Positions 1 to 24,965 of a DNA stretch of 30,087 bases are shown piece by piece; position 1 is the first letter of the stretch, and every line of letters starts with the position of its first letter. This DNA comes from a virus. The stretch is from IMG/VR virus record IMGVR_UViG_3300029319_000317, positions 1 through 30,087 of that record. The stretch is one strand, 5' to 3'. A program made the translations under genes and the position numbers. A model generated the notes under the pieces. That model worked only from the letters and a program-made list of their open reading frames with translations. It made no database searches and was not told the DNA's origin.

Positions 1-261
1 ATTACCTGAAGTGAGATTCTTGAGGAATGCGTCCATCGCTGCGTTATCATTTGCTAGTTCTCTTATGTCAATATCGCGGCGCGGTGCCACAGTGTCAAGG
101 TAAACCAAGATGCCAGCAGCTATTAGGTTAGTAGGGAACATAAGGATTTCTTTGATTCCGGCTGAGATTTTAGCACCCATCTCTCCGAACATTCCTTCTT
201 CCATGGTGGCGTCAAGCTCTTCCTTAATGATCCTGCGGATCTGTGTCTTCGTGAACTTCAT
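1..261 (-). CDS. Small protein of unknown function, 3' end cut by window edge
   Basis: Eighty-seven codons are visible from an ATG at 261 and the frame runs off the left edge, so the C-terminus is missing. The N-terminus reads MKFTKTQIRRIIKEEL, a short basic amphipathic stretch. I remember similar openings on otherwise unrelated small proteins in marine phage sequence, but I cannot search. Around residues 33-55 there is a moderately hydrophobic stretch (ISAGIKEILMFPTNLIAAGI and on) that could be a membrane or packing helix. An acidic, asparagine-rich part follows (RELANDNAAMDAF). The start is supported by GAGGAG about 8 bases upstream. The gene follows the primase stop by 24 bases, and a copy of the ACTATTTA motif lies 48 bases before its start, inside the end of the primase gene. 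No function can be assigned. Confidence 0.75.
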   Translation of the reverse strand, partial: MKFTKTQIRRIIKEELDATMEEGMFGEMGAKISAGIKEILMFPTNLIAAGILVYLDTVAPRRDIDIRELANDNAAMDAFLKNLTSGN

Positions 262-285
262 AAGTCTTTCTCCTCGGCGCTTCCA

Positions 286-1215
286 TTAGATCGAAAGCAG
301 TTTCTCCAATAAATAGTTATCTTTTCCATTAAAAGATGCATTTTCCTTGCGAACCTTGAACTCGTCTTTAGGCATCGCTCCAACATCTTCAAAGCCAGTC
401 GTATCAATAGCATAGGTTTCTATTCCGTAATAAGAAAGGATGCGAGCGATCGATCGGCTCTTCCTTTGGGCGTCAGCGTCAAGAGCCAGTAGAACCCTTG
501 CGTTATTTTTAACAAGGGCCTCAAAAATAACAGAGCCCTCACGAAGTGTGGATCCAAGTAGAGGAATAGCATTGCCAGCCTTTATCGCGTCAAAAACGCC
601 TTCTACAATAACTATTTCCTCGTCCCAGTTTAGGTAAAGTTCGTTGAAAATAATGTCTCGGCTAACTGGGGGGTTCTTGTAGCGTGGCCACTCATAGCCC
701 CAAGAGCGAGCAACATAGTAGTCAACCCACCCGTCCTTATTGAAAGACGGAATGATGACCCTTCCGGCAAACTCGCCTTCGGCGCAATAACCGATCTTCC
801 ACCGCATAATGTCGTCACGAGTGATGCCTCGCTCTCTAAGGTAGCGTAGAGCGGCGAAATGGCCCTTGTGAGTCGTCTTGCCTGTTAAGGAGACGAACTC
901 CTTGGGCAAGTCGATGCGTTGCTCCACGGGCTCGTCAGGGGGCGAGAAGAGGTCTTCATAAGAAGACACATCAACAGTCGTTTCAAACTTCTTCCAATGC
1001 TCACGATCTTTGCTTGATCCGAACTTGTTAACAAGGTAGCCAAGACTAGAGCCCGACTTATCGCAAATCCAACACTTGAAGACGCCTTTGTCGACATTGA
1101 CGGACAACTTCTTCTTGTGGTGGTTGCAGAAAGGGCAATGAAAAAGCAGTTCTTTACCGGATGAATAGTTCCGACCAAGAACCGACTTTATGATCTTTTC
1201 TTTTTCCTCTCGCAT
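286..1215 (-). CDS. DnaG-type DNA primase (zinc finger plus Toprim, no helicase domain)
   Basis: This 309-residue protein should make RNA primers for phage DNA replication. A CHC2-like zinc ribbon lies near the N-terminus with C27, C30, C48 and C51 (CPFC and CWIC pairs). The RVIIPSFNKDG stretch near residues 152-162 resembles the RNA-polymerase-like N-terminal part of DnaG-family primases. The Toprim domain has its glutamate at E205 (IVIVEGVFDAIKAGN) and its aspartates at D246/D248 (LLALDADA). The protein is much shorter than cellular DnaG (about 580 residues) and lacks a helicase or helicase-binding C-terminal domain, so a separate phage helicase is expected elsewhere. The ATG at 1215 lies inside the end of the RuvC-like gene (28-base overlap) and is preceded by a G-rich stretch, GGGGG. 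That arrangement suggests translational coupling. Family assignment is strong; loader and helicase partners are unknown. Confidence 0.92.
   Translation of the reverse strand: MREEKEKIIKSVLGRNYSSGKELLFHCPFCNHHKKKLSVNVDKGVFKCWICDKSGSSLGYLVNKFGSSKDREHWKKFETTVDVSSYEDLFSPPDEPVEQRIDLPKEFVSLTGKTTHKGHFAALRYLRERGITRDDIMRWKIGYCAEGEFAGRVIIPSFNKDGWVDYYVARSWGYEWPRYKNPPVSRDIIFNELYLNWDEEIVIVEGVFDAIKAGNAIPLLGSTLREGSVIFEALVKNNARVLLALDADAQRKSRSIARILSYYGIETYAIDTTGFEDVGAMPKDEFKVRKENASFNGKDNYLLEKLLSI
310..317 (-). promoter_or_regulatory. ACTATTTA motif before the leftmost gene
   Basis: In the coding direction this reads AACTATTTATTGGAG and lies inside the last codons of the primase gene, 48 bases before the ATG of the small protein at 261. 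It is farther from its gene than the other copies, so its role here is less certain. Confidence 0.3.
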
Positions 1216-2961: not shown

Positions 2962-2973
2962 CGTAGCACCTCC
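2953..2973 (-). promoter_or_regulatory. Perfect Shine-Dalgarno site that fixes the start at 2961
   Basis: The coding strand reads AAGGAGGT, then five bases, then ATG. The full anti-Shine-Dalgarno match is the strongest in the window. It overlaps the stop region of the paralog before it and suggests that the 412-residue protein is made in quantity. Confidence 0.6.
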
Positions 2974-7359: not shown

Positions 7360-10300
7360 TAGTACCCGCTGCCTCCACCGCCAACTCTACTACTCAAAGA
7401 CGGCCTAAACGTTCTTGACGTTGCAACATTTCTATTATCTTCTCTTTGGGACGCTATGCTTTGCTCCTGAGACGCCTGCTCTGTTCTAGGCGCTATGCCA
7501 CTCGCTGCTTGCGCTTGGACTGCGGTTATGTTTGTCGCTAACCTGGGTGTCACTTCTGAATCTCCACCAAAGTTTGTGCCTACTCTGCTAACAATGTTTG
7601 GCTGCTGAACGATCATGTTTGTTGCGTACTCTGGCAGCTCAAACTCAGAAATAATAAGCCTAGCTGTTTCTGTGTTCAAGGAGTTCTTTCCATAAGATAG
7701 CAGCCCTACGTTCTCCGTCAATCTTACAGCAAGAGAGACTTGTTGTGAACTCGCCTCTATTACCTCACTTTGCGCTTCAGATGCTTCTTGGGCTGTTGCT
7801 TCTTGCTGTTGTTCGACAACTGTTGTCGGAGCATTCTCCGACACAATATGGAAGTAAGCATCAAATTCTCTCATTTTTAGTTTTTTATTCTTAGAGATCT
7901 TTAAGTCAGGATTATTGTAGGAAGTCATTCTACAAAACAATTCTCTGCCACTAGATGCTGCCCTCCTGAGAGCCCTGCTCGTAAGAGGTGCAAAAATTGG
8001 AGAGTTAATCTGATAATCGCCTTCAGAGTTTTGTTCAAAGCCCACTAAAACGTCAACCCGATTTATGTGACCGTAGTTAAGATAAAAGTAGCTTGCATAC
8101 TCCGGGGAGTTCATTATATCAGCCCCAGTCTCTCGCGCAATCTCAGCCCAATTTATTGCAACACCAGGCTCTTCTGCATAGTAAAGAGACTTAATTTGGT
8201 TTGGCAACCTGCGCACTCTCTCGCTTTCCGAAAGCATAACCAGCGAAAGTATAGGAATTCTTCTCGCTTCGCCGTAAAGCCCCCCGGTCGTTGCAACAAT
8301 GCCTGAAGCTATGCTCGAAACTACATCTGCTGCTACGCCCTGAGCAGAGGTAGAGGATTCAAAAGGGTTCTCCTCTTTGTCAACGTCGGGCTCGGCAGTA
8401 AAGCCCGAATTACTACTTAAGTATTTGTTTTCTGGTGCATCAAAATTGTTTTTAAATTCGTTAACCATGCTAAGGTCCAAGACCGAATCTTCAATAGCCG
8501 AATTTGAGCTTACCGTTTCAAACGACAAGTTTGGCAAACTAAAGGTAAAGCCAGGTCTTTCTGAGGGCGAACCAGGGAAAGAATACGAGGGCTCATATGG
8601 CGGCGCAGATGGAGTGGGATCAATATTCGTTCCATCTTCCGTGTCTCCCTGGGCGATCCTCTTAAAAGCTAAATCGTTATAGCGTGCAAGATCATCAGAA
8701 GCGACTCCTCTTCGCTTTATGTCTAGGATCGTGCCCTTGGATAGTTTTGCTCGATATGGTGTCAAGTATGAGTAATAAGTATCTAAAAGATCCAGTTCCT
8801 GAACTGTCCCTGGTGCTGGCGTAGTGGAAGTACCGACGGCAACATTACTAAAGTATTTTTCGTTTTCCTCGTTGAATCTCTCTTCTATCTGTGCAATTGT
8901 GAAAACTCTATGACCAGTTGTGGTTCTTTCCGCGCCTATGGTGTTCATAAAGTCATAGCCAACTCTTTTTTGCACGTTGCTATTATGCTTTGTTTTGAAA
9001 AGCTTTTCAAAAGTAAATTTGTCTTTTGGCAACTTGCCTTTGTATGCTCTTGTCCTGTCCCTGTAGTCGACTTCATCAACGAGAACCTGGCCGTCGTTCG
9101 ATAACGAAACTGAAAGCTTGCTTTCTAGGTTCTCCAACAAACTAATGACTTGCTCAACACCTCTTATGTTGCCCCTGATTGGGGAGATCATGGAATACAT
9201 ATTCTTAGACAAAGTTGAAGCCTTTGTGTTGTCGAAATCTGTTAAAGTTGTCAAAGTATCGATATAAGTTGCAACAGCAACGTTCCAAGGCAATTCGCCG
9301 ATACTCTGTCTTAAGGTCTGAGCCCGCTGTCTTCTGTTTCCCCCAAGAGCAGTTTCAAAACTCGGTATCCCATATTCAGCCTCTATAAGTGCCTGAAACT
9401 CTTCAGTAAAATCGCCAGAGTCTTGATCGTAGTATTTTACATTCCCAGCTTGTCCGTAATACTCAATCAAAGAATTCTTAGCTTGTAGCAGCTTTCTGTA
9501 TTGTTCTTGGGCAAACTTGATAGTCCCGTCTACAACTTCCATGCGTACAGAGTGACTAAAAAAGCCATCCGTCTTGTTGCTCATTTCTATATCCGAAACA
9601 GCAAACACCCTTATGCCCGTGAGACGCTTCTGGTTTGCGTCCACCTCTCTTATAGAACCGACTACAGCAGGCTCTGTCTCTACGTTGTATTCAACCTTTG
9701 GTCTAACAAGTTGATTCTCTATTAGATCTCCAAGATTGGAATCATAAGTTTCTGCTACCAGTTCAGTTCTGTCACCATAGTCTACTAGTTTACTTTCATC
9801 CTTCTGAAGACCTGGGACAACCCTATTTCGATAAACCTGCACTAAAGAAACAGGAGACAACTCGTACAGCCTACTAAGTGCATCAGGTTCTAGCTTATCT
9901 ACGACCTTTCCAAACTGCGTAAAGTCTTCTAGCATCTTTTTGTAGTTGACAACAAAGGACATGTAAACAGAGTTTTCTTCGTCGTAAGAATAAGAAGGTT
10001 CTGTGACATACGCCGCTTTTGTCGCAATGCTTAACTTATGCTGTGACTTTCTTTCTGCCCTCTTTGATCTTGCTTTCCTAGAAGGCTCCAAGAGAGGCTT
10101 GGCCATTGTTGCAAGCTCAAAGACTCTCTCATCATTGACAACCATGTTTGGGGCACTGACTGTAGACAAAACAGGGTGAGATCTCGCTGTATGAAAAGCC
10201 CCAGCCATGACAATATCTTCTCCCTGCTCGGTCGTGTGCTGGTGGACAGGGCCAGCCCAGGTAGAGCCGTCTGGGAGTCTATAGTAAAACGTATTCGCCG

Positions 10301-11058: not shown

Positions 11059-12093
11059 TTAGTAATCTGGGCAAGCTTCTTCAATCCCATCGCTATTGTA
11101 AATACTTCTTTCGACTGGATCCAGCAAGTCAGGACAAGTAATTTCAATATCATTGAACAAGTCTTTTGACTTAATTGAAGATAGGCTCTTACAAATTTGA
11201 TTCTCCGAAATCTCAGAGTCTACATTTATACTGAAAAAATACTCCACAAATGTTGGATCTAGCGGTGGAGTCTCGCCGCCTACTCGTCCGGAACGCATGG
11301 CCGCCTCTTCTGGGTCTAGTAAAATATTGTTTTCGACCATCGTTATTGGTTTCACAAATTTAAGCGGCTTTAGAATTTGCTCCCCAAAGACACCAACTTC
11401 ATCTGTTATTTCAAAAACTTCCATGTCAAAGTTTTCGTAATCAAACGGCGCGTTCTCTTCTTCAACTATAACAATAACCTGTTCTGGCCCGATTTTGATC
11501 TCTGTACCATCCGTATATGTTCTGCCGTTTGTTAGCGCTGGGTCATCTTCGAACCTAACTGATTCACCTGACTCTACAGCAGTTATCTGGTATTCGACTG
11601 TCATATCTATTTGAGGTATTTTTAGAACCTGTTGAGAATACTGATCAGAAGCCGATGAACCTGTGTTTGTTGTCCTAACATTTCCTTGCTGAGTAGAACT
11701 AACTGTATCTATTTCTCCCTCCAAGAATCTCATCTTGAAAGCTGGCGTTTTCGTGGAGTCAAGGGTAGAAGTGCCCAGCGGGTACTTTAAGGTATTCATC
11801 CTTTCGTACAGGCTTATCTGGGAAGCCTCTAAAACATCGTTCACTCCGTCAAACAAAAATTCATCTCTACCAGTGTAGTTTCCTTGGGCTCGCAAGGATG
11901 GCGTCTCGTCTTGAATTCTCACTTCCGCGCTGTTCTTGTTCTCTGTTGTCCCAATGTATTCTGCATCATACACTACGTTTTCATCAAAAAAGGCATAGTA
12001 TTGGGGCTTAAAGCTTCCTTGGGAGAGCTTGTATTTGCCGTACTTCGTAAGCTGTATATCTAATACTTCCTCTTTTTGATCAAAAAACTTCAT
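11059..12093 (-). CDS. Virion-associated protein sharing an N-terminal module with 4106-5047
   Basis: This 344-residue protein opens with MKFFDQKEEVLDIQLTKYGK, then LSQGSFKPQYYAFFDENVVY. The same order (LD, LT, G, L, G, SFK, A, D, Y) occurs in the gene at 4106-5047. The body is acidic. Around residues 195-245 there is a segment rich in Glu/Asp (IVIVEEENAPFDYENFDMEV), and the C-terminal part has three cysteines (ICKSL, ITCPDLL, EEACPDY). The ribosome site GAGGTGA sits inside the last codons of the giant gene, whose stop is two bases before this start, so expression is probably coupled to the giant. That coupling suggests a partner of the giant in the baseplate. I recall this family as a widespread unnamed marine phage protein; function is not known to me. 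Confidence 0.8.
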   Translation of the reverse strand: MKFFDQKEEVLDIQLTKYGKYKLSQGSFKPQYYAFFDENVVYDAEYIGTTENKNSAEVRIQDETPSLRAQGNYTGRDEFLFDGVNDVLEASQISLYERMNTLKYPLGTSTLDSTKTPAFKMRFLEGEIDTVSSTQQGNVRTTNTGSSASDQYSQQVLKIPQIDMTVEYQITAVESGESVRFEDDPALTNGRTYTDGTEIKIGPEQVIVIVEEENAPFDYENFDMEVFEITDEVGVFGEQILKPLKFVKPITMVENNILLDPEEAAMRSGRVGGETPPLDPTFVEYFFSINVDSEISENQICKSLSSIKSKDLFNDIEITCPDLLDPVERSIYNSDGIEEACPDY

Positions 12094-12095
12094 GC

Positions 12096-15000
12096 TTATT
12101 CACCTCTATTGAAAGATGGGCCGGAATCTGAAGTCGTCCCTGTTGAGTCCGAAGCGCGAGCTGTTTCGCGAGCGCTCAAGTCGGTCTCTTGCGTCTCCCC
12201 GGACACCGCTGGAGTCCTGCGAATGTCTTCAAACTTAGTTGTTCTATTGTCAGGTATGTGCTTAAAGTCCACGCTTGCCTCTAGTTGTGCCAACTCAACT
12301 ATAGAACAAAAGTCGTATGGCCAGTTGTAACTGTAGAACGGCATTGTCCTAATGTCGGTCTTCCCAACTTTCAAGTTATAATCATTCTCAGCGCGCTGCT
12401 TAACCTTAAATACCATCCAACGAAGCTCTTTGCCAAGTCTCTCGCCTGTGTAGACCGGCCCACCCTCTGCGCCGTCAAAGATTCGATCATTAGAGTCGTA
12501 AGATATGTCGCCGAGAAGTTCATTTGATAGAAGCTCATGACTGATGGTTGAGATAGAAGACTCTGCGGTTACACCAATCTTTGGTGGTAAGTTCTGCCAA
12601 ATGTGAGACAAGTCGTCCTGGTCCAGTAAAGCGCTAAACTCAAAAACATACATCGCTATGGGGTCAACATCGCTGTTATTAATAAAGTCAAACTTTGGAG
12701 GAAAAATATACTTACTCATCGCCCTTTTCAACTTCTTAATAGTGCTTCCTTCGTATCCTGGTAGGTCCACCGGGCCGAGTGAGAAGAACCTGTTTTCTCC
12801 TTGTGCAACCTTGTATGGTACCGCGACGATTGCTTCAAAGATTCTTTTCTTCTCTCTTACCTCTCCCACCCGAACAGGATCCGTTGAAAATCCACAAATA
12901 TCAATTAACGATTGCATCTCCGGAACTTCGTAGTCTGCGGAACTAGACCCTACTGGAACGGAGTATTTGTTGTAATAAGTTTTGGCCTCCTCGTAATTGC
13001 TCACATACGGGCTCTTGTTGAGAGAAGATATGTGCCCGCCCGGATCTGGAACCAAAGACGCGCTCGGGTGGTTCTCTATCCACTCTTTTGGAATATCAGT
13101 AACCTGAATGTACACGCCCTCGCCGTCACGCGGAAGCCTGCCAAACTGATGCCACATACCTCTAGGAATGGCACAGTTAGCCGCATCAGTATCTGAAACG
13201 GTAAGTGTGCCGTCAGCAACCGAGACATGATTAAAGTTTAACATTGGTGTCTCAAATTTAGTCTGAATAGTCCATCTGTTGCCATTTAAATTCTTGCGGA
13301 AAATGTTCAATGAAGAATCAAGTTGCATTGCCCATTCATTCACAAACGGCCCAGAGGCTGGTCCGACCCCCACAAAATTCGTTGCGCCAGTTCCGGTGTA
13401 GCTTTTTACGTGGTAAGAAGAGCCCGCAATATCCTTCAAGCCTTCTTGATCGTAGCGCCACTTTCTTGTGAAAGAACCAGCAAGCGGAACATTATTGTTG
13501 GAAGAGCCACTTGTTCTGAATATCGCTGCATGAGGAGATGCAAATATTTCATCCAATGTTGGTCGATACTGCTCTCCAGTCTCATCAGCCTTGAACTGGA
13601 ACAAGTGTGGTGTCCCTGTCGCTGCTTGTGGCTGTGTTTCTAACCCTCTTGGGAAGAAGATGATATCAAACCAGCACTCTCCATCGTAATATGGTGGTGT
13701 GTGCGATCCATAAATGCCATTTGCAGGGGTGAAATCATGTATTGTGCCAGGCATTGTGTCTGCGCCAGGCCACCTATTAGTTAGATCTGGGGAGCCTGAG
13801 GCATAAAGGCCGAGTGGTACGCCAAAAGCAGATGGTCGACTATACATAGTGAAGCTTTCACGGTTAGTGACCTCTTCATATGATCCTGTGAATGTTGCGC
13901 CAGTGTACGGATTGATGCTACCACTGGTCAATATGACTCTACTGTTTTGCGGTAACTCAAAGTTGCCATACGAACCACTTTGAATACGCGCCTTTTCCAT
14001 GGACCTCCACATCTTTACACGCATTCCGTAAGGAACACCAGGAGTAACTTGTTTGAAATCTCTTTCTGGCAAAGATCTGATAGTAGATAGACGACCCCTA
14101 GACAAGAACAGGTCTACGCTCTCGGCAAGGAAGTTGTTCATCATTCTCTTGTATTTCGTCCCGCCAGTTCCGTCGAATGAAACAATGCTTCTTACTCTTG
14201 CCCAATCACTTGGTTCGTCATCAGCAATTCTCTTGTTTGCTATAAAGTTTTCTGGCTCCAAAATGGCTTCAAACGGTATCCTGTCATCCCACCCTCTTGA
14301 GTGATCTACCGTCCTTCCGGTAGCAATTCTGCTTTCTGAACGTCTGCTACTAAAAATAGCAAACGAGGCTGATGTTACAAACTCATCGCCGAGGGCGGTG
14401 AAGCTAGTTGCGTCATAAGTTGCTTCACGTTTTGGGCCGACCCTTGGGAATTTTGTCATAGTTCCCTGCATAATCGGATAATCGACTGCAATACCAGATT
14501 TAATCGTATTGTAAAGGATACCAGGAGCGAAGAGGGGCTTCAAAAAAGTCCTCAAGGAGGCACCTTCGCCTAGTTCTGCGCCGCGAATCTTGTTAACAGA
14601 ACCACTATAATCGTTGATAAACTGCTCAACCATCTGAGTGGTCCTCTCTGCCGGGTAAAATCCATCATATGGTATAAACTTCTTTATTGCTTTACATTTC
14701 AGTGTGATACTGTGAGGTTGAATCGGCTCTGTAGAGCTGATTGAGGAATGATCTCTTTTCAGTATTTCAAAATACTTTAAGAAATCAGAGTTTGCAAATG
14801 TCTTAAAGAAGCCTGATTCAGAGTTGTTTTGAGGCACTGTTGTGCCCGATGGGACTCCCGGTATTTCAAAAGCTCCGTCAATATCTACTAAAAAGTTACT
14901 GTTGTTATCATCGTAGAAGTTTATGTGTTGTGATATTCTAAACTCTGGTATAATTGAGTAAGCTTTGCCCTTACCTTTTATTTCCGAGAAATACACACCA

Positions 15001-18000
15001 TATGTATCGTCAAATGGTTCTACCGCAGTTGTGGCAAACTGGCTAGACGAACCTTCATACCTACCAGCCTGGGAGGCCGCCTCCCATAGTGCCTCGCCTC
15101 TGAAATAGGACTCGTTAGGTAAAACGTGCTTGTCAGAAGTAGCAGAATCTAGTTCTGGTATCTCCATCCCCCAAGGTGCTACGACGGCGCCTGAAAGGGG
15201 GTACACTTGCTTTCTAGAGTAAAGAAGGCCAGGTACGACGTTCGAGGAAGTGCCCGCGTGAAAATGCATATACATGTTCTGTAGCTGCCCCGGCTTGACA
15301 CCACTTGTGTTGTTTGCTGGCAAACCTCCTCGGACAGGGAAGGTAGAAGGAGCAAATCCAACAAAATCTTCTTGTGCGTCTAGCGACCAAGCGCTTTGGC
15401 TTACTGTGATTCCGCCAACATTGGTTGGTTTCTTTGTCTCGCCCTTGGTTGCACGATCTGCACGGGAATCCCTCCAGAAATTGTTTTCAAAGTTTGTTCT
15501 TCCTCTGACAACATCTCTGTAAAGGTTCTTTCTTGAAGGATAGACAACTTCTGAATATCTCAAGGAAAGGAGATCGACAATTGGGCTAGACTCATCCTTT
15601 ACCGCACTTGGTGCTCTATTGGCGTTCGTTGAGTACATCCGGTAAAGACTTCTGTAGGAAGTATCTTTAGAGCGAGCGCGGGCGCCAATCTCTTTGTTAA
15701 ATATTGGATTCGTAAAGTATGTTAGCTCATTTTCGTAACTTGACTTAACAATAACAGTTGAATTCTCTTCAGGCTCCTTAGTACGAACTTCAAAGCGGTA
15801 CATCAATGGTTTAAAAGTAGTATCAACTGGGCTCTGCTGGTGCTGTAAGGATGCCCTATTCCTAACTGGGATCGCTGTTGTTCCCCCTGGAGTTGTGACT
15901 GTTATTGGCTCACCGACCTTTGGTGTATGAGTATAGATGTTGTTTTCGCGATAGTAGCGTGGGAGCCTACCTTCTCCAACTCTTATCTGTTTCCAAGTGC
16001 CGTAGCCGTAAACTCCTGCTCTGTGGCTAATGAGGCCATTTAAAACTTTGCTCCTTTGGGCTCCAAGCGCAACATCAGGAACATATTGGTCTAAGTCAGT
16101 GGAAAGAGGATATCCTGTTGTAAAATCTGATGAACTTACCGGCTCAACAATTAGCGTGTTAATGTTAACAAAATCAACAAATTTGTCATTAATGGTGAGA
16201 TTGCTACCGCTAACAAAGTTGACTGCGCTGACAAGACCTGCTGATGATGAAGCAAGTCCGTCATACGGAAGATATCCATAAATAATACCTTCTGTTGAAT
16301 CGTATGACGCAGTGATCCAAGCATATTGGAAGTCGGACTGCGGGATCATGTGCTGGACATAGTAGTTATCATACACAGTCTCTGTCACCGGCCCAGCGGA
16401 ACTGGAAACTAGCCTCTTAACACCGTTCCTATTAACTTTGTGGAAACTAGCGGTAACACTTGTATAATCTAGAGAAGAAACAGCGGAGCCTGAGCGGAGC
16501 CCAAACTGTTCTGAGCGCTCTGTCAAAAGTGTGCGAAGAGGCTGGCGGATTGTTAAGTTTCTGTAGTTTAGGTTGTTGTAGGGGCTCAACTCGGAAGAAG
16601 CGTAGTCAAGTCCCGCACCACCCTGTGCGTCACCAGCAGTCTCCGGGCCACCGGGTGCGGAGAAACGGTTGACGATAACGTGCTCTGTGCGTGCTCTGAC
16701 AGGCTTTGCATAATCAATAAGATTCTCAACATAGCCACTAACATCTGTTGTGACAGAAGCGGTAGAGAAGCCCTCATTCTTAACGAACTGGGAGTTGTTT
16801 GTTCTACGAGAGTTTGTCATAACAACTTCATAACGCTTGTCGAAGTTGCCCATACGGATTGTGTTTGAACCAGATCTATGCTGAATATTTTCGATGTTTA
16901 CCGGGCGCTTGACGCCTTCGCCCCTGCGGTATTGCGGGGAGGCAGAGGGTCTTGTAAAGTTGTAGTCAGCAGATGAGTAATTCGTGCCGTTCCTGAACCA
17001 AGCTTCGGCCCTAGTTGTGGAAGAAGTTAGAGTGGGATCTCCTGTAAGATCTTCATGGCGATGTCTATAGCCGCCGACATGGGCGTCTGTAAACGGCCCC
17101 TGCATAGGGACATCATAGTCTGGGCCGTAGGAATCATTATGAAAACCGGCAAACTCCACCCCTGAAGTTAAAGACTTGTATCCAGCAGAGCTAGCAGAGG
17201 AACTGTGAAGAACGGCAGGAATGTTATTCTTGTTTGTTGAGTAGCCGTTCTGTTCCTGATCATGTGTTCCAACGACCTGCTCATAGCGGCGTTTGATGGT
17301 GACAATCGGCTCACCCGTTTCAGCAACATCTATGTCCTTAAAACTACCATTAGAAAGTGTTAACTTATTTGCATTACCTGTTCCGCGCTTTGTAATGGAG
17401 AATAGTGCGTCTGGCCTGTGCCCTGGTGGGTAGTTGTAGCCTCCGCCAATCTTCTTTCCAAGATCGACCGTTGTTCTTGTTGTTTGTGCGAAAGTCCTAA
17501 GGGCGTAAGTTGAGCCATTGTACACGTTCTCTATGCCCGTGCTTTTGTTGAATTCCTCGGCAGAAGCAGAGTTGAAACTTAGGATGATGTCGTTAAGGTC
17601 TTGGCGGGCCGTGTCGATGGATGCTGCCGTGCCGAAGACTGCGTTGTCTCGCTTGGCTCGCTCTTTCCACCAACGACCGCTTGTGCTTTGTAGATTATTG
17701 AGTGGTGCGTGGCCAAACTCCCAGTTGTAAGTGAGTTCTTCAATACCCTTGACTCTTGCCTCTAGCTTAGCTTCATCACCACCGAAACGCTCGTTCCCCT
17801 TGTAGTCAAGGTGCGGGTACTTGTGATCATATTTGGAACGGGAAAGGATATGATCTTCCACAACTGTTCTAATTTCGTCGGAAACATCAGCAGAAGCAGG
17901 AACAAGTTGCTGGAGGAAGATGCCAAGAGAGTTGTCGATCCACTTGTAGTATTCGATGAACTTGTCGAGGTCTGGGTTGTTTTGGATCTTCTCAAAGAAA

Positions 18001-21000
18001 AGTTGGCGAAGAAGGCGAAGACCCTTGTAGTCTCCACGATACTTGTTGGCAACATCGCCGATGAGGTTGTTGAACTCTACGATTGTTCCAAAATAGTTTA
18101 CCATTTCTTGGGAGACAATGCCATACATGCTCTTCTCAAAAGCAAAGAACATTTGCGACACGGCGGCGTCTCTTGGGAAAAGTTCATCATCCCTGGAGAG
18201 AACATTAACGGCATCTGCGGAGCTTATGACCTCGGGCAAACGCTGGCGGTTTGTTGGCAGGAACTCTTTATCGATAACGCTCGTAGAGGAAACTGCTGCT
18301 GGGAAATAAGCAACTCCTGCGTACTGGCTATTGATAATTCTCGAAAGGTTGCCGTCGTTAGAGTAACGAGAGAATAGTGATGTTGAGCCTGAAGAAGCGT
18401 CCTCAACCGTGAAAGCGCCGGCTGCGTCTGTTCCCGTGACCTGCGCAAAGTCCCAGTGCATGGCGAGGGACTCGATGTTTGGAATGGTCTGGTTGTCAAC
18501 ACCGGCAGTTGTCGAGTCAGTGTTGAAAGCAATGTTTCTGCTTGGGAACTTGGTTCCGACATTGGCTGGATCTTTCGCGTGCTCGACAATGACTTCATTT
18601 TCGAGGTAGGAAGCCCAGTGACGAATAGACGTAACCTTGACATCCGAGTTTGTGACGACGGAGCCAGAGTAGTTTGTGCGGTCTGCGCCGATGTAGTAGC
18701 GGCGATCGTTGGTAAGATAACCGTTTCCAAGTCCACTTGCTGTGACTTCAAACTCGTTTTTTACAACACCGAACTCTGTATTAACGCCGTACCATTCGAG
18801 AATGTGGGCATTTGAAGTCGAGCCCGACAATCCATTAGAGTAGGGGAACTTTTCATGCTTAATGCGAACAGCAAAATTCCATTTTTGGTTGTCATAGACA
18901 TTGCTGTAAACTGAGCTTGTTAGATTTAGTGTCCCTGCCCTATTCTTAAGCTGAAAATAGCCGTCTCTTGAATTGGTGTGAGTCCTCACAAAGTATAGCT
19001 GGAAGTTTTTATCGTCAGCAGCAGTAGTGAGCCAAGCAAAGTTTGTCTCGCCCTGTGAGTTGTGGTGTCCAAAAATTGAAGAACTTAGGAACGGAGTATG
19101 GAAATATTGCGGGTTGCTGAACTCATACTTTCTTGGGAAGAAGACCTCGACCTCGGCTGTATTTGCAAGGTAGCGATTTGTTCCTGTAACATGCGTGATA
19201 CCAGTTGTTTGCGAATTGGCGAGAGAGGAACTCTGATAAACAATGCCGCCAAAGCGATCTGGGTGGTTAAAATCAACAAAGTTTTTGCGGGTGATTGTTG
19301 AATAGTCGGTGTCTTCAAACTTGAACTCTGCGCTGTTGCCATAAGCATTGAACTGAACGACTTCATCTCCGATGCCATAACAGCGAATAAGGTTTCTAAA
19401 CGCCTTTTCCGTTCCCTTTGACTTATAAATGTAAGCAAGGTTGTTGTAAATGTTCTGGTAGATGAGGTTTTTGACTTCGCTTAGATCAAGCTCATAGGCT
19501 CTGTCTGACCTTCTGTTGGCGAAACGCTCAAGGATATCGGCGTCAACAAAGATCTCTGGGACTTCGAGGCCCCTAGAGGAAAGAAGATTACGAGCAAAGG
19601 GGATAGGTTTAGCACTTGCAGACAGATAAGAGTTGTCCGTCAGGTGAGGAAGAGCCTTAATCTGGATGTTTAGGGTGTCGAAATACGAGCCAACAATCTG
19701 TGTGAGACGTGTAAGCTCCCCAGACCCTGCTGTCTCATCCTGATCCACAATCCAAGATGGAATGGAGTCTTTTATACTAGCTTGGTTCTCATAATCATAT
19801 ATGCTACCTGTATTCGACAAGTTAGTGAATAGAGAAGAGACATCCGGGTGATCAGAATATATAACCGGATCGCGATATTCAGCGGTGCCTGATACAACAG
19901 CCGTTGAGGAGTTTATGGCAGAGCCAGTAGAGCGAGCAGAAGAGCCAGGGTAACCAACCCAGGTTCCGTTTGTGATGCGCCCAGAGTAGTCGAGGACAAC
20001 GGAGTCGGTTGTTGTAACACCAGTTACACCTTCGTTAAACTTGTAATAAACGCCGAGTTCTGCATTGGCAATCTCTTCATTTGTGCCGCCGCGAACCTGC
20101 GTCCACCAGTTGTTTTGAATGTCTTTCTCGTCTCGCTTGGACTTCCAGTAGCGGAACTCATCAATAGAACCAGATAACTTACCGTAGCCAGTCATGGTTG
20201 TGCTAGCAAAAGCAGCACCAGACGGAGCAGTTTGGAGTGCCCCTATGAAAGCCTTGAGTGGGCCTGTGACGGCTCCGAAGTCAATAGCCGATGTCGTGGT
20301 CTTATTTAGTGTGCCATCGACGTAAGCCTTTGTTGTAAGCCCCGTAGAGCCTGATTGAACTGTGACGGCATAATGATGCCAAGCACCGTCGGCGATGGAT
20401 GCGGTTGTGTAAGCGCTGGAAAGTAGGCTAATGTCGGCTGTGCTGGAGCCTGAACCGAGGTGAAGGTAGAGCGGATCCGCGCCGTCAGTGGCTCCGGTGA
20501 CATAGAGGAGGAAGCGACCATAGCCGGCAGAGGAGGAAACAGAGCCGTTCCAAAGGTCAAAAATGACTTCCTTTTCGGTAGAAGCGGTAAGCCAAGTGTC
20601 CTTGTTTAGCCAGAACTCGACGGAGACGCCCTTGGAGAGATCGTAGTTTAGGTTTGACTCGCGGGAACCAACACGGTCAAGGGCAAGCGTGCCGTCAGTG
20701 CCGTAAATGTCCGTGTCGTAATAGTTGGAGCCGGTGAAGGTGTAGTGTAGTGTTCCGGCTGGCATGCCCCCAGAGGCGGTGTGTGGGCCGCCTACGAATG
20801 AAATGTACTCGGGTGCGGAAGAAGAGCCCCAACCGCTGACTGCTGTGCCTGCTGTGCCCCACCCATCGGAGGAGAAAATGGCGTAGCCGGTTGTGCGTGG
20901 GTAGCGGTTGTCAAAAATATAGAGATCAAGGTAGTTTGACTCGTTGTGGAAGCGAGTTATTTCTTCTTCGGAGCCGTCATAAGGAAACTCACGGTAAATG

Positions 21001-21227
21001 CGGGAAACGGCGTCTTCGTAATAGGACTGTGCCGAGCCGTAAGTGACAAAGTTTGCTGGATCGGAGAAGTCAACCGCTGGAATGTAGCGATTGATACGCT
21101 TGATCTGCTCTCTAACATTATCCGCAGACTCAAGTTCCGGAGCGTTTTTGACAACCTCTTCTTCGAGGTTTGTAGAAACTAAGACCGTTTGCGGCTTATT
21201 TGAGTCAAAAAGTTTTCTGATGCTCAT
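12096..21227 (-). CDS. Giant baseplate protein: LamG domain, tail protein I/gp7-like segment, second LamG-like segment (3,043 residues)
   Basis: Residues 45-115 form a conserved-looking entry segment (VDFSDPANFVTYGSAQSYYE, YPRTTGYAIF). Residues about 195-385 are a concanavalin-like LamG domain with VSVEFWLNKDTW, DGAWHHYAVTV and LSGSIDEFRYWKSKRDEKDI. Residues about 500-620 resemble phage tail protein I / gp7 of the baseplate wedge: QIVGSYFDTLNIQIKALPHL, LLSSRGLEVPE, and IYKSKGTEKAFRNLIRCYGI. Residues about 680-880 look like a second LamG fold (KWNFAVRIKHE, RRYYIGADRTN, VTSIRHWASYLENEVI). A helical part follows (1015-1135, EYYKWIDNSLGIFLQQLVPA), then some 1,900 residues of beta-rich sequence with no named domain. 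The C-terminus is Ser/Thr/Glu rich and probably disordered. It starts in a TAATG overlap with the gene before. Its place right after gp25- and gp6-like genes supports a wedge role; T4 gp7 itself is about 1,030 residues, so this is roughly three times longer. Confidence 0.85.
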   Translation of the reverse strand: MSIRKLFDSNKPQTVLVSTNLEEEVVKNAPELESADNVREQIKRINRYIPAVDFSDPANFVTYGSAQSYYEDAVSRIYREFPYDGSEEEITRFHNESNYLDLYIFDNRYPRTTGYAIFSSDGWGTAGTAVSGWGSSSAPEYISFVGGPHTASGGMPAGTLHYTFTGSNYYDTDIYGTDGTLALDRVGSRESNLNYDLSKGVSVEFWLNKDTWLTASTEKEVIFDLWNGSVSSSAGYGRFLLYVTGATDGADPLYLHLGSGSSTADISLLSSAYTTASIADGAWHHYAVTVQSGSTGLTTKAYVDGTLNKTTTSAIDFGAVTGPLKAFIGALQTAPSGAAFASTTMTGYGKLSGSIDEFRYWKSKRDEKDIQNNWWTQVRGGTNEEIANAELGVYYKFNEGVTGVTTTDSVVLDYSGRITNGTWVGYPGSSARSTGSAINSSTAVVSGTAEYRDPVIYSDHPDVSSLFTNLSNTGSIYDYENQASIKDSIPSWIVDQDETAGSGELTRLTQIVGSYFDTLNIQIKALPHLTDNSYLSASAKPIPFARNLLSSRGLEVPEIFVDADILERFANRRSDRAYELDLSEVKNLIYQNIYNNLAYIYKSKGTEKAFRNLIRCYGIGDEVVQFNAYGNSAEFKFEDTDYSTITRKNFVDFNHPDRFGGIVYQSSSLANSQTTGITHVTGTNRYLANTAEVEVFFPRKYEFSNPQYFHTPFLSSSIFGHHNSQGETNFAWLTTAADDKNFQLYFVRTHTNSRDGYFQLKNRAGTLNLTSSVYSNVYDNQKWNFAVRIKHEKFPYSNGLSGSTSNAHILEWYGVNTEFGVVKNEFEVTASGLGNGYLTNDRRYYIGADRTNYSGSVVTNSDVKVTSIRHWASYLENEVIVEHAKDPANVGTKFPSRNIAFNTDSTTAGVDNQTIPNIESLAMHWDFAQVTGTDAAGAFTVEDASSGSTSLFSRYSNDGNLSRIINSQYAGVAYFPAAVSSTSVIDKEFLPTNRQRLPEVISSADAVNVLSRDDELFPRDAAVSQMFFAFEKSMYGIVSQEMVNYFGTIVEFNNLIGDVANKYRGDYKGLRLLRQLFFEKIQNNPDLDKFIEYYKWIDNSLGIFLQQLVPASADVSDEIRTVVEDHILSRSKYDHKYPHLDYKGNERFGGDEAKLEARVKGIEELTYNWEFGHAPLNNLQSTSGRWWKERAKRDNAVFGTAASIDTARQDLNDIILSFNSASAEEFNKSTGIENVYNGSTYALRTFAQTTRTTVDLGKKIGGGYNYPPGHRPDALFSITKRGTGNANKLTLSNGSFKDIDVAETGEPIVTIKRRYEQVVGTHDQEQNGYSTNKNNIPAVLHSSSASSAGYKSLTSGVEFAGFHNDSYGPDYDVPMQGPFTDAHVGGYRHRHEDLTGDPTLTSSTTRAEAWFRNGTNYSSADYNFTRPSASPQYRRGEGVKRPVNIENIQHRSGSNTIRMGNFDKRYEVVMTNSRRTNNSQFVKNEGFSTASVTTDVSGYVENLIDYAKPVRARTEHVIVNRFSAPGGPETAGDAQGGAGLDYASSELSPYNNLNYRNLTIRQPLRTLLTERSEQFGLRSGSAVSSLDYTSVTASFHKVNRNGVKRLVSSSAGPVTETVYDNYYVQHMIPQSDFQYAWITASYDSTEGIIYGYLPYDGLASSSAGLVSAVNFVSGSNLTINDKFVDFVNINTLIVEPVSSSDFTTGYPLSTDLDQYVPDVALGAQRSKVLNGLISHRAGVYGYGTWKQIRVGEGRLPRYYRENNIYTHTPKVGEPITVTTPGGTTAIPVRNRASLQHQQSPVDTTFKPLMYRFEVRTKEPEENSTVIVKSSYENELTYFTNPIFNKEIGARARSKDTSYRSLYRMYSTNANRAPSAVKDESSPIVDLLSLRYSEVVYPSRKNLYRDVVRGRTNFENNFWRDSRADRATKGETKKPTNVGGITVSQSAWSLDAQEDFVGFAPSTFPVRGGLPANNTSGVKPGQLQNMYMHFHAGTSSNVVPGLLYSRKQVYPLSGAVVAPWGMEIPELDSATSDKHVLPNESYFRGEALWEAASQAGRYEGSSSQFATTAVEPFDDTYGVYFSEIKGKGKAYSIIPEFRISQHINFYDDNNSNFLVDIDGAFEIPGVPSGTTVPQNNSESGFFKTFANSDFLKYFEILKRDHSSISSTEPIQPHSITLKCKAIKKFIPYDGFYPAERTTQMVEQFINDYSGSVNKIRGAELGEGASLRTFLKPLFAPGILYNTIKSGIAVDYPIMQGTMTKFPRVGPKREATYDATSFTALGDEFVTSASFAIFSSRRSESRIATGRTVDHSRGWDDRIPFEAILEPENFIANKRIADDEPSDWARVRSIVSFDGTGGTKYKRMMNNFLAESVDLFLSRGRLSTIRSLPERDFKQVTPGVPYGMRVKMWRSMEKARIQSGSYGNFELPQNSRVILTSGSINPYTGATFTGSYEEVTNRESFTMYSRPSAFGVPLGLYASGSPDLTNRWPGADTMPGTIHDFTPANGIYGSHTPPYYDGECWFDIIFFPRGLETQPQAATGTPHLFQFKADETGEQYRPTLDEIFASPHAAIFRTSGSSNNNVPLAGSFTRKWRYDQEGLKDIAGSSYHVKSYTGTGATNFVGVGPASGPFVNEWAMQLDSSLNIFRKNLNGNRWTIQTKFETPMLNFNHVSVADGTLTVSDTDAANCAIPRGMWHQFGRLPRDGEGVYIQVTDIPKEWIENHPSASLVPDPGGHISSLNKSPYVSNYEEAKTYYNKYSVPVGSSSADYEVPEMQSLIDICGFSTDPVRVGEVREKKRIFEAIVAVPYKVAQGENRFFSLGPVDLPGYEGSTIKKLKRAMSKYIFPPKFDFINNSDVDPIAMYVFEFSALLDQDDLSHIWQNLPPKIGVTAESSISTISHELLSNELLGDISYDSNDRIFDGAEGGPVYTGERLGKELRWMVFKVKQRAENDYNLKVGKTDIRTMPFYSYNWPYDFCSIVELAQLEASVDFKHIPDNRTTKFEDIRRTPAVSGETQETDLSARETARASDSTGTTSDSGPSFNRGE
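19368..19730 (-). other. Tail protein I / gp7-like segment inside the giant baseplate protein
   Basis: Residues about 500-620 have the layout of phage tail protein I: a helix with LTQIVGSYFDTLNIQIKALP, a proline-rich turn, GLEVPEIF, then a helix ending in YKSKGTEKAFRNLIRCYGI. The lysine-glycine-threonine step before a helix and a late glycine are the family's most typical part. This segment is the main reason to compare the giant with gp7-type wedge proteins. The match is by eye and should be tested with profile searches. Confidence 0.55.
20073..20645 (-). other. LamG (concanavalin-like) domain inside the giant baseplate protein
   Basis: Residues about 195-385 of the giant show the hallmarks of Laminin_G_3-type domains: an opening strand with SVEFWL, DGAWHHYAVTV, a following TTKAYVDGTL strand, then GSIDEFRYWKSKRDEKDI. 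Such domains often bind sugars, so this could be a receptor- or surface-binding part displayed on the baseplate. Binding is inferred from the family only. By hand count, a 300-base sample here (20521-20820) is about 55% G+C. Confidence 0.85.
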
Positions 21228-22732
21228 TATTTATTCTGCCTTGATTCCACTTTGAACTTAAATGCTTCGGGCTGTTCAACCCAGGCTCCCACATCTTCAT
21301 TATAGAATGAAAGTTTTATTCCGTAAGAATAGCCAGTTTCAAGCATGCTCATATCTAAGTCAAAGTATGAACCAGAGGCATCATAAGACATTATTGTATG
21401 GTTATCGCTGCCCGTCCCGTAAGGAACAACCTTAAGGTCGTCTATCACTCTATAAATTTCGTAAGAACCACTATCTACAATTTGTACTTCGGGTGTCGCC
21501 ACCGCTCTTGTGTAAATAGTTGGGTTCCAATCTTTTTGGCGAGTGTAAACTCTAAACCTTGCTGTTTCGTTGTCGCGATAAGAATGACGTAAATTTGTTA
21601 TTGTTGTGAAATACTCCTCTGACGGAGCAGTCGAGTATGGCGAAAGAACTATTGGTTCAAAAGAGCCTGTGTAGTATTGCGTGCCCGCTCCGTTGTTCCA
21701 CACATCATAGACAACTTCTAGTGGCGTTGCAGCCGCTGTTAGAGCAAACGATGCTGAATAGATGCCCTTTGAAACAAAACCTCCTGTTACAAAAGTTGGA
21801 GAACTAGAGTTCACATGAACTCCATCGGCAACAAGAGTAATGGGATCTCCTGTCGGAACCCCACTAGAGCCTGAATAAATGTTTACATAAATAGAGCCTG
21901 TGCCGACGCTTGGGATGTTACGAAGACGGCCTCTGAAATAGTTATACAAGTAGATCGTTTGAATATTTTCTTGAGGCGTAGCTAAGGAGCTAGAGTAGTA
22001 AAACCTGCCTCTATTATCTTTTATGGAGGAGTTCCAGCGCGCCTCAATACAAGGCTTCTTGAAAAAGAACTCTGTGCCTCGCGCAAAAAACTTCTTAGTG
22101 TAGTAGGAACGAGTTGCTGTCTCGTAAGTGCTTGAAATTCTTATACCAACACCTTCATCTTCTTTTGAGCCAAGAACATTGCCAGCACTGTCAAGCCACT
22201 GCTCAACAAGCTTTGTTATATCGAGTTCTATGTCTTCCGTACCATCGTCAAAAGACGCTGTGAAAGATGAGGATGCATCTGTAAAGTAATCACCACCGGT
22301 TGTCGCCCAAGCATTACCGTCAGATGACGAGACCCAATTTGAGGAGCCTTTGTCTTTATAGGCTTCCATGTCGAGCCCCGTGCCCTCGGTCCAAGATCCG
22401 GAAACTGCGGAAACATCCATTGTGTAAGACTTTGGTAATGTCTGTCCGTGCGGGGCGTTAAAAAGACGAAGATAAAAAGATACATTGCCGCTTGCTGGTA
22501 TTGTTCCTGCTGTCCTATCTGCTTGGATTGAGTTTGTGGATGCGGTGCAATCAAACTTAATCAATACTCTTGACGCCTCAGCAGAGGCAGAGGATGCTTG
22601 GCCGTAGATGGAGAAAACCTCAAGGATATCCGAGGCACCCATGTTTGCATCCGTAGCACGAGTTTTCAAATTTTCTTCAAAAGCATTTGTTATTGTATTG
22701 TCTTTTGAAGCGTAATATCTTTTGATAGCCAT
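21227..22732 (-). CDS. DNRLRE-like beta-sandwich protein in the baseplate cluster
   Basis: The product has 501 residues. Residues about 1-235 follow the pattern of DNRLRE domains: an opening strand with DNTITNAF, a repeated small-residue turn (ANMGASDILEVFS), SRVLIKFD, a stretch of strands with YLRLFNAPHG, a SGSWTEGTGLD block, then DITKLVEQWLDSAGNVLG and VGIRISSTYE. DNRLRE domains are usually found in secreted or surface proteins as structural or binding modules. The second half (240-501) is Ser/Gly/Tyr rich with more strands (IYVNIYSGSSGVPTGDP, YRDNETARFRVYTRQKDWNP). Both ends overlap neighbours by one base in TAATG, linking it to the gp6-like gene before and the giant after, so the three are likely made together. 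Where T4 places gp7 directly after gp6, this phage has this extra protein. A baseplate adaptor or decoration role is inferred. Confidence 0.8.
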   Translation of the reverse strand: MAIKRYYASKDNTITNAFEENLKTRATDANMGASDILEVFSIYGQASSASAEASRVLIKFDCTASTNSIQADRTAGTIPASGNVSFYLRLFNAPHGQTLPKSYTMDVSAVSGSWTEGTGLDMEAYKDKGSSNWVSSSDGNAWATTGGDYFTDASSSFTASFDDGTEDIELDITKLVEQWLDSAGNVLGSKEDEGVGIRISSTYETATRSYYTKKFFARGTEFFFKKPCIEARWNSSIKDNRGRFYYSSSLATPQENIQTIYLYNYFRGRLRNIPSVGTGSIYVNIYSGSSGVPTGDPITLVADGVHVNSSSPTFVTGGFVSKGIYSASFALTAAATPLEVVYDVWNNGAGTQYYTGSFEPIVLSPYSTAPSEEYFTTITNLRHSYRDNETARFRVYTRQKDWNPTIYTRAVATPEVQIVDSGSYEIYRVIDDLKVVPYGTGSDNHTIMSYDASGSYFDLDMSMLETGYSYGIKLSFYNEDVGAWVEQPEAFKFKVESRQNK

Positions 22733-24531
22733 TATCTTACGGTTCCTCTAATGTCAATTCTTGGGAACTTGATCTCAAGGATCACGTTGTCGGGCACTGA
22801 AAGGTAGCGTCCGTCGAGGGACATAAATTGATCGATGTTGAGTGTCGAAGAAGAGTAGTTCGTTCCCCTCTTGCTAACTAGTTTGACCTTTGCCGTATCT
22901 GCCACGCCTCTTACCTTGTTGAGAGCGGTGAAAACATCTGTGATATAGAAACGCTCACCAATGAACATTGTCCTAGAGCCAAAAGCGTTAACTAAGGCAG
23001 TTGTTGCACTGTCAAGAACTTCAAATTTGTTAACTTCCTCAGCCGCGACTACCTCAAATTCTATTCCAACATTAACAATCTTTGCATCAAGGATGTCAAC
23101 CGTGTCGTTGATCATCCTATAGCGGTTAAGGTAGACTTTTATGTTCTCTTTTAGGGCTGAGTTTGAGGCGATGAGCTTGCCGTTTGAATCTTCTGAAATG
23201 ATGTAAACATTTAGGTTTCTCTTGAGGGAGTCCTGATCGCGGACTACTCTACAGCGCTTGACCGCCCCGAACTGTCCTGGCATTGCATACAAGATACCTT
23301 CATAGTCAGAAGCAGTTACAGCGCGACTCTGAGCTGGAAAGATATTGAGGGCTTGCATCCTTATCTCTTCTGCTGTCGGGTTCCTAACAGAGCCTACCAT
23401 TGGCTCTTCATTAAACGCCTCAATGCTGCTAATAACGGTTCGAGCCTCAGCAGTATTGGATATTGTTGGGTTGTTAAATTCTACAATAGGACTAGCAACC
23501 CTGTTAACTTGCCCAGTAGCTGCATTTGCTGAGCTATTTGTGTTTCTTCTATAAGTTATAGTAAGTGTAGTGTTCGCAGGCCCAATACCCAATTTGTCTG
23601 ATCCAACAAGATCTGATGGGTCAAAAATCGCATCTGTAACGTAGTTTTTAGCCGCCCTTTGCAGAACAACATTTGAAGGCTCTGCCAGGGATGGTGTCGC
23701 AACCTCAGAGTCTGAACCATATCCGAACTGTAAAGTTGTTCTTGTTCTGTTCTGCGATACGGTAAAACGGCGGGCGGCGACAAAGGGCCTTATGAGCGAA
23801 GGAGCATTGTCTCTTGTGTTAGAATCTTTGTTTGTAGTCGCTTTGTATACGACATCTTGAGATAGGTACTCAACTTCAAAGTATTCATGCCCTTCAGAGT
23901 CAAAGACGCTTACAACTTCGACCAAGTTAGCGTCATCGATAAATACTTTCTTAAAACGCTCAAACGTTCCAACAGTAACAGATGTTGTTTTAAACTCGCC
24001 TGATATCACTTGCCCCATTGCTTTGATTGCATAGCTTGTCGGGAGGCCAGTAGCATTATCGATATTTGCCGCAACTACCTCGTTTGAAGGTTCATCAAAT
24101 CTAACATCCTCTGTGAGAATAAAACTTGCACCAGTAGAGGAACCCAAAACAGTATTTCTCTTAAGAATTGGCATGTACTCTTGTTTCGGACCAAGCCCTG
24201 TAGCGTTGGCGTTAACTATAGCGTATAGCGAAACCATTCCTGTTGTAGAAGATGAGCCACGAAACTTATAGCCAAACTGCTTCGCTAGCCTCAGGACGTT
24301 ATTGTACTCTGTTGCAGAATCTAGAAAAGACTCATTTGTTTGGTAATCCAGATAAAATGAAGAAATATCACCAACATAGGCAACTGTGTCTAGTATCAAA
24401 GAACCAAAAGAGGACTCGCTAAAATCCTTGAAGGTATCTGGGTAATACCTTTTTGCATAGTTAACAAGGTCTTCTCTTATGGACTCATAGTCTCTGCTTG
24501 TATAGTCTATCGGCGTTCTTCTTTTGGCCAT
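22732..24531 (-). CDS. 6: Baseplate wedge protein, gp6 / Baseplate_J-like
   Basis: This 599-residue protein is the best recognised structural gene here. The N-terminus has the typical gp6/Afp11-type pattern: IDYTSRDYESIREDLVNYAK, then YYPDTFKDFSESSFGSLILD, VAYVGDISSFYLDYQTNESF and NVLRLAKQFGYKFRG. The Baseplate_J core follows in the second half, with AEEIRMQALNIFPAQSRAVT, SDYEGILYAMPGQFGAVKRC and DILDAKIVNVGIEFEVVAAE. T4 gp6 is 660 residues, so the length fits. In contractile tails gp6 proteins form the wedge ring that holds the baseplate together and opens when the tail fires. The start has GGAG about 10 bases upstream and an ACTATTTA motif 17 bases upstream. The gene follows the gp25-like gene and overlaps the DNRLRE-like gene by one base. 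Confidence 0.93.
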   Translation of the reverse strand: MAKRRTPIDYTSRDYESIREDLVNYAKRYYPDTFKDFSESSFGSLILDTVAYVGDISSFYLDYQTNESFLDSATEYNNVLRLAKQFGYKFRGSSSTTGMVSLYAIVNANATGLGPKQEYMPILKRNTVLGSSTGASFILTEDVRFDEPSNEVVAANIDNATGLPTSYAIKAMGQVISGEFKTTSVTVGTFERFKKVFIDDANLVEVVSVFDSEGHEYFEVEYLSQDVVYKATTNKDSNTRDNAPSLIRPFVAARRFTVSQNRTRTTLQFGYGSDSEVATPSLAEPSNVVLQRAAKNYVTDAIFDPSDLVGSDKLGIGPANTTLTITYRRNTNSSANAATGQVNRVASPIVEFNNPTISNTAEARTVISSIEAFNEEPMVGSVRNPTAEEIRMQALNIFPAQSRAVTASDYEGILYAMPGQFGAVKRCRVVRDQDSLKRNLNVYIISEDSNGKLIASNSALKENIKVYLNRYRMINDTVDILDAKIVNVGIEFEVVAAEEVNKFEVLDSATTALVNAFGSRTMFIGERFYITDVFTALNKVRGVADTAKVKLVSKRGTNYSSSTLNIDQFMSLDGRYLSVPDNVILEIKFPRIDIRGTVR

Positions 24532-24560: not shown

Positions 24561-24965
24561 TCAAAGAGATAGTGGTATTGTCAAGTCTGAAACCACGTTC
24601 GCAGAAGGGACTGAGTATCTTATTCTTATGTTGACTCTTGTTTGATCGATATCGCCGGGCAAACCGCCTGCAACAGGGGGGTTAGAAACGTCAAGCTGCA
24701 ATATGCTTATATATGGCAAGTATGTTGAAACTTGACTTCGTATCCTATTTTTTATAGTTTCTAGGGTGCCAGCAGTGTTGTTTTCAAAAAGATATTGCCT
24801 AATGCCAACCCCAAACTCAGGATTCATAATCCTTTCTCCTGGCGAGGTTAGTATAACCATCTTTAAATTTTGAGACGCAACTTGTGTTATCCTTTTGTTT
24901 AGGCCGTAGGCGCCGTCAACAGGATCAACACGAAGTGGTAGTGCTACAGATAAACCTTCAGCCAT
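24561..24965 (-). CDS. 25: Baseplate wedge protein, gp25-like
   Basis: The product has 134 residues, close to T4 gp25 (132). The gp25/GPW core is clear in the middle: ITQVASQNLKMVILTSPGER, IMNPEFGVGIRQYLFENN, and then a helix with TIKNRIRSQVSTYLPYI. The ending is a pair of beta strands (RVNIRIRYSVPSANVVSDLT). Members of this family join the wedge to the sheath end of the tail and are present in nearly all contractile tails and injection systems. The gp25-like gene directly before gp6 is the usual order. The start is backed by AGAGGGA, and the 30-base gap upstream contains an ACTATTTA motif 16 bases before the ATG, so gp25 may begin a new transcript. Confidence 0.93.
   Translation of the reverse strand: MAEGLSVALPLRVDPVDGAYGLNKRITQVASQNLKMVILTSPGERIMNPEFGVGIRQYLFENNTAGTLETIKNRIRSQVSTYLPYISILQLDVSNPPVAGGLPGDIDQTRVNIRIRYSVPSANVVSDLTIPLSL

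Follow-up and report, generated by a model that had tools for sequence, protein, structure and literature searches.

Inspection of the 30,087-base viral contig that forms the whole of IMG/VR record IMGVR_UViG_3300029319_000317 (the window; probably a piece of a larger genome) showed a gene for a 3,043-residue protein, here called the giant, to lie downstream of genes coding for baseplate wedge subunits. As the first-pass annotation had proposed, the giant is encoded by a single open frame running from 21227 to 12096 on the minus strand, with an ATG start. A scan of viral contigs identified relatives of it at 72 loci, most of them near full length, with best-segment identities of 28-79%. The giant is probably a much enlarged wedge subunit of the gp7 type, from a large phage with a contractile tail, carrying LamG insertions and an outer C-terminal module. 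The genes on which this reading leans are, in the order of transcription:

24561..24965, minus strand: gp25-type baseplate wedge subunit, 134 amino acids (aa); phrog_261, E-value (E) 1.2e-20
22732..24531, minus strand: gp6-type baseplate wedge subunit, 599 aa; phrog_219, E 1.7e-24
21227..22732, minus strand: 501-aa protein (g501), between gp6 and the giant; slot conserved in relatives, with a LamG domain in one of them (L023)
12096..21227, minus strand: giant baseplate protein in the gp7 slot, residues 1-3043; single open frame, ATG start

A gene of 1,635 aa, truncated by the end of the record, occupies the hub position upstream of gp25 in the direction of transcription, giving the order hub-position gene, gp25, gp6, g501, giant. 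The placement of the giant after gp25 and gp6 was thus recovered, with the addition of g501, which had gone unmentioned. To the extent of the contigs, the order (hub), gp25, gp6, g501, giant, g344, (g1264), g753, g313, g371 was found at 71 of the 72 loci. Flavobacterium phage immuto and Microcystis phage Mel-JY01, which are cultured and whose gp6 proteins are the nearest among named phages (29-32%), show the order gp25, gp6, (g501-like gene), wedge protein, g313, g371. The proteins of immuto (immuto26A_162, 1,265 aa) and Mel-JY01 (WWT39511.1, 1,336 aa) that occupy the same slot as the giant, after gp25, gp6 and the g501-like gene, are annotated as hypothetical. The following segments were distinguished in the giant:

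21021..21077, minus strand: anchor motif, residues 51-69 (VDFSDPANFVTYGSAQ); collinear with immuto 287-305 in hhalign, with 0 of 200 shuffles scoring as high
19884..20894, minus strand: LamG1, residues 112-448; beta sandwich of the LamG/pentraxin type, from Pfam and predicted fold
20115-20642, minus strand: PF13385 match within LamG1, residues 196-371; E 3.8e-12
19317..19868, minus strand: core 1, helical wedge-core segment, residues 454-637; matches residues 386-586 of the immuto wedge-slot protein, hhalign probability 98.8, E 5.5e-17
19314..19478, minus strand: Tail_P2_I-like KGT motif segment, residues 584-638 (IYKSKGTEKAFRNLIRCYGI); hhalign score 28-30 against the P2 gpI family
18615..19307, minus strand: LamG2, residues 641-871; second, LamG-like beta sandwich, AlphaFold2 predicted local distance difference test (pLDDT) about 90
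17802..18071, minus strand: core 2, conserved helical segment, residues 1053-1142; matches immuto 666-750, hhalign probability 95.6, E 1.1e-8
16308..17801, minus strand: middle region, residues 1143-1640; no match, its end coinciding with a gene boundary of one clade
15651..16307, minus strand: variable region, residues 1641-1859; median identity 26% across 1641-1930
12228..15650, minus strand: C-terminal module, residues 1860-3000 (1,141 residues); one compact predicted fold

The three anchors (residues 51-69, core 1 and core 2, the last aligned over 1053-1137 with immuto 666-747) emerged from comparison with the wedge-slot proteins of immuto and Mel-JY01, and run collinear between the giant and the immuto protein. 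LamG1 sits between the first and second anchors and LamG2 between the second and third; since immuto has about 80 residues at either place, the most natural reading is that the LamG domains were inserted into a wedge protein that existed before them. In the Mel-JY01 wedge-slot protein, hmmsearch recovered core 1 with an independent E-value (iE) of 1.5e-22 (core alignment) and core 2 with an iE of 1.1e-5. Both cores were also present, about 410 residues apart, in an uncultured 484-kb phage. Pfam revealed no LamG domain in the immuto or Mel-JY01 wedge-slot proteins. The earlier proposal that a wedge protein had absorbed LamG domains is supported by these three anchors, the sequence comparison arguing for their acquisition by insertion into a gp7-type protein. 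The 1,336-aa protein of Mel-JY01 weakly matched a portion of the LamG2 region (iE 7e-4), and LamG2 was possibly gained before LamG1.

A tail protein I-like segment had been placed at about residues 500-620. A P2 gpI profile built from 13 relatives aligned through P2 gpI residues 65-114 with residues 584-638 of the giant, at the KGT motif; column-shuffled profiles, used as controls, reached the score in 0 of 200, 0 of 200 and 1 of 400 cases. A profile of the immuto and Mel-JY01 proteins likewise aligned at this motif (score 28.2). Other gene families and slices of the window scored 23 or less against the P2 gpI profile, the runner-up being g501 (23.0). The curated cut-off of PF09684 (Tail_P2_I) was not reached by the giant or its slices, and two of 45 family members gave an E of 0.12 at best; the giant is therefore not filed under PF09684. 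The segment thus stood in the profile-profile comparison, above the shuffles, and fell short in Pfam; judged from these alignments, the likeness is real but distant. The giant resembles P2 gpI in the KGT motif and the surrounding helices and, with g501 intervening, in an operon position after gp6-type and gp25-type genes, but P2 gpI is only 176 aa long and has neither LamG domains nor a C-terminal module. With T4 gp7 and XM1 gp17 (the latter likened by description) the giant would share the expected role, one copy being present with two of gp6 per wedge.

Several observations weigh against this assignment. A single 501-aa gene intervenes between gp6 and the giant. In absolute strength the Tail_P2_I likeness is low (hhalign probabilities of 4-30%, under the Pfam cut-off), and a T4 gp7 profile (27 sequences) gave no match to residues 1-1175. 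AlphaFold2 predicted helices at residues 461-530, 582-616 and 1064-1108, but the pLDDT of the core segment 530-640 was only 38-64, a low confidence for its fold. Because the T4 gp7 profile is equally unable to detect P2 gpI, its negative result with the giant carries no weight. Prediction of the structure of slices, which had been proposed earlier, gave a predicted beta-sandwich on either side of a poorly modelled 530-640 region.

The giant might instead be a peripheral adhesin or fibre-network protein that merely adjoins the wedge genes, the true gp7 counterpart being g501, g344 or g1264. The gene for g501 comes directly after gp6, the position of P2 gpI and T4 gp7, its P2 gpI profile score is the next best, and the likeness of the giant itself to Tail_P2_I is weak. 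However, at 28-30 the core of the giant outscores g501, and its alignment falls on the KGT motif, which is the part that the family conserves; the profile built from immuto and Mel-JY01 aligns at the same motif, and the core is conserved even in places where the remainder of the giant diverges. None of the five large relative records searched contained a standard Tail_P2_I match, and hence none offered a rival candidate. An adhesin that only neighbours the wedge genes is accordingly considered unlikely, and the sequence comparisons indicate that the giant most likely works as a gp7-type subunit.

The presence of a LamG domain ahead of the tail protein I-like segment, another of the initial claims, was confirmed. 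The PF13385 match scored 47 bits, above the curated cut-off of 27.6; it appears when slices are scanned and is lost if all 3,043 residues are scanned together. AlphaFold2, given 53 sequences for residues 1-1175, returned a model (mean pLDDT 74.9, predicted template modelling score (pTM) 0.51) that contained two beta-sandwiches, at about 112-448 and 641-871, with high local confidence over most of each. In VIA, the LamG1 model aligned to PAPP-A with a Z of 19.9 and a root mean square deviation of 3.1 over 218 aligned residues, a match of the LamG/pentraxin type. The identity of LamG1 as a LamG domain is certain. As for the LamG-like domain claimed to follow the segment, the predicted sandwich at 641-871 agrees with it, and two-LNS neurexin fragments (L2-L3) aligned to the 1-1175 model over spans of 112..940 and 113..987 (342 residues), with LamG2 seen within the whole model. 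Sequence-profile support for LamG2 was lacking: it gave no Pfam match, and no hhalign match to LamG1 or other LamG copies. With its fold seen in the larger model and no sequence profile, LamG2 is termed LamG-like only, an assignment that the predicted structure supports. The absence of a profile match between LamG1 and LamG2 means that a recent duplication is not supported.

LamG1 was found in all 40 records tested, with a conservation equal to that of the core, which speaks against a role as a variable receptor-binding part. Additional LamG copies were present at several other sites of the giant in nine of these relatives. The g501 protein of L023 (7779-10001) has a LamG domain at residues 230-376, and the 193-kb record behind L016 carries LamG domains in other genes too; LamG modules are thus spread across several genes of the group. 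When the window was compared with its nearest relative (L013), LamG1 was 98-100% identical over most of its length, and gp6 81%. This near-identity, together with the core-like conservation, is as compatible with a fixed ligand or a structural role as with a variable receptor. The LamG domains might accordingly be structural spacers or inter-wedge contacts that bind no glycan, with host contact elsewhere on the baseplate, and the want of a recognisable LamG sequence profile in LamG2 is in keeping with this. Yet LamG copies are gained and lost elsewhere in the giant, and also in g501 of L023, in the manner of accessory binding modules, and in Bacillus phage Vp4 the carbohydrate-binding folds of a wedge protein do bind cells (PMC11406892). 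A purely structural function is a serious contender, with a little under an even chance.

The Vp4 protein, Gp119, is a baseplate wedge protein with carbohydrate-binding module (CBM) folds that was shown to bind host cells (PMC11406892), and is a direct precedent for the arrangement proposed for the giant. It differs in being an 831-aa BW3 protein (A511 gp105 type) whose modules are of the CBM16/xylanase type and not LamG domains, and in acting on a Gram-positive host. In XM1, the T4 gp7 ortholog gp17 (242 aa) has spikes attached via an internal loop and the C-terminus (PMC10457771). In the parts of the AlgoCIS report drawn on here, the gp7-like part of Alg12, Pvc12 and Afp12 lies laterally, bears additional domains and binds fibres, and it is described as an evolutionary hotspot (PMC8894135); no LamG domain is reported in those parts for AlgoCIS, and in the phages of the giant gp6 is a separate protein. 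LamG2 as an internal insertion and the C-terminal module as a C-terminus would correspond to the attachment sites in XM1 and AlgoCIS, and by this analogy a location at the baseplate periphery would be expected for both.

The C-terminal module (residues 1860-3000) was modelled by AlphaFold2 from 44 sequences with a mean pLDDT of 79.4 and a pTM of 0.88. Comparison of the model with solved structures gave a best Foldseek PDB match of E 0.34 (probability 0.03) and a best Z of 4.8 in VIA, which re-examines Foldseek candidates only. Weak alignments to jelly-roll capsid proteins covered both ends of the module and were not significant; they are a hint, no firmer than that, of a sandwich with very long loops. 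No solved relative was found, and the module may have a new fold. No counterpart of the module was found in the immuto or Mel-JY01 proteins. In agreement with the first-pass annotation, about 1,900 residues of the giant had no match. Searches of PHROGs that started from the giant and from 45 core segments yielded nothing useful, and PDB sequence searches with N-terminal, core and C-terminal alignments gave a weak match to a sialidase lectin domain (E 0.025) and otherwise noise.

Some relatives have two open frames in place of one, which could suggest that the 3,043-aa frame is an assembly chimera or a mis-called fusion. In one clade (L029, L030, L033, L039 and L066) the split lies near residue 1640, with GAGGTAAA-ATG type signals (a ribosome-binding site) ahead of the second start; in another (L021 and L023) it lies near residue 1930, and a GGAGG overlaps the end of the first gene. 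Dozens of independent contigs nevertheless carry fused, near-full-length frames, and the split forms have ribosome-binding sites and form clades of their own. An artefact is thus extremely improbable, and an assembly chimera was rejected. The 1930 split falls inside the 1860-3000 stretch that AlphaFold2 folds as one unit, so both products, judging from the model, probably still assemble together. The family tree has no outgroup root, so that either fusion or fission may be the ancestral state. In relative L055, one in-frame TAG was noted near 14839-14843, the neighbours L045 and L071 being uninterrupted; it may be an error, a nonsense change or a readthrough site.

The C-terminal half is the faster-changing part of the giant. 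Compared with L013, the giant is 75-100% identical up to about residue 1800, with a drop starting at about 1650; beyond, identities are mostly 44-80%, and lower at the very end. The drop near 1650 and the clade split near 1640 place a mosaic border and a gene border in the same region. In other genes, identity to L013 was 81-87% for gp6 and g501, and 37-57% for the downstream g344, g1264 and g753. Over residues 1-400, the giant shares 98-100% identity with L013, against 81% for gp6, 71% for gp25 and 43% for the hub-position protein, which suggests that the stretch encoding them recombined recently.

The whole family of the giant is uncharacterised. BFVD contains relatives at 29-41% identity, and those with names are listed as uncharacterised. 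Six matches were found in bacterial and archaeal genome records, all in metagenome-assembled genomes, and no safe host can be derived from them. At the L206 locus (CP070664.1, 578564-602022), a relative with a 1,562-aa frame and a 184-aa piece of g501 lie in a 'chromosome' of candidate division WOR-3 that is 2.8 Mb long and was assembled from a metagenome. A search of this genome for gp6 (phrog_219), run without a positive control, did not find it; the locus is possibly an integrated remnant or a mis-assembly. Immuto-like wedge-slot proteins with C-terminal Hint/intein-type domains were seen in L197 (protein 6001-10146, residues 1219-1367), L203 (residues 1326-1541) and L199 (residues 1190-1336), accompanied by BACON domains in L203 and L199; self-processing domains are an unusual feature for a baseplate wedge protein. 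Elsewhere in the window, the 313-aa (4106-5047) and 344-aa (11059-12093) proteins have similar N-termini, with a short hydrophobic start, LDxxLTxxG, FK and DD/DE, which by eye suggests that they are distant paralogs. A primase and a RuvC-like resolvase are encoded at the far end.

In the proposed working of the giant as a gp7-type subunit, its two helical segments (residues 454-637 and 1053-1142) would associate with two copies of the gp6-type protein, giving the wedge triplex to which gp25 and the sheath are anchored. The LamG domain inserted ahead of core 1 and the LamG-like domain between cores 1 and 2 would project outward from the wedge and may bind surface, capsule or exopolysaccharide glycans; host contact by these domains is suggested by analogy. 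The C-terminal 1,400 residues would be an outer module replacing separate peripheral baseplate proteins. More tentatively, and with the odds somewhat against it, residues from about 1860 to 3000 could be an integral component that is peripheral or makes contact with the receptor; the wedge scaffold, the lectin domains and the outer baseplate would then be joined in one polypeptide, divided into two genes in some lineages, even within the C-terminal fold.

The idea of a decorated baseplate is already known; what is described here is a probable gp7-type protein that has grown through the insertion of LamG domains and through a long C-terminal module for which no solved relative was found. Its relatives are common in metagenomic viral contigs, listed in databases as uncharacterised. 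The present reading identifies the protein in the gp7 slot of this group, explains its size through insertion and fusion, and supplies domain borders for expression and structural work. Should the LamG domains bind glycans, the very scaffold that sets off contraction would also be a sensor of the host surface, and the link between recognition and contraction would become directly testable.
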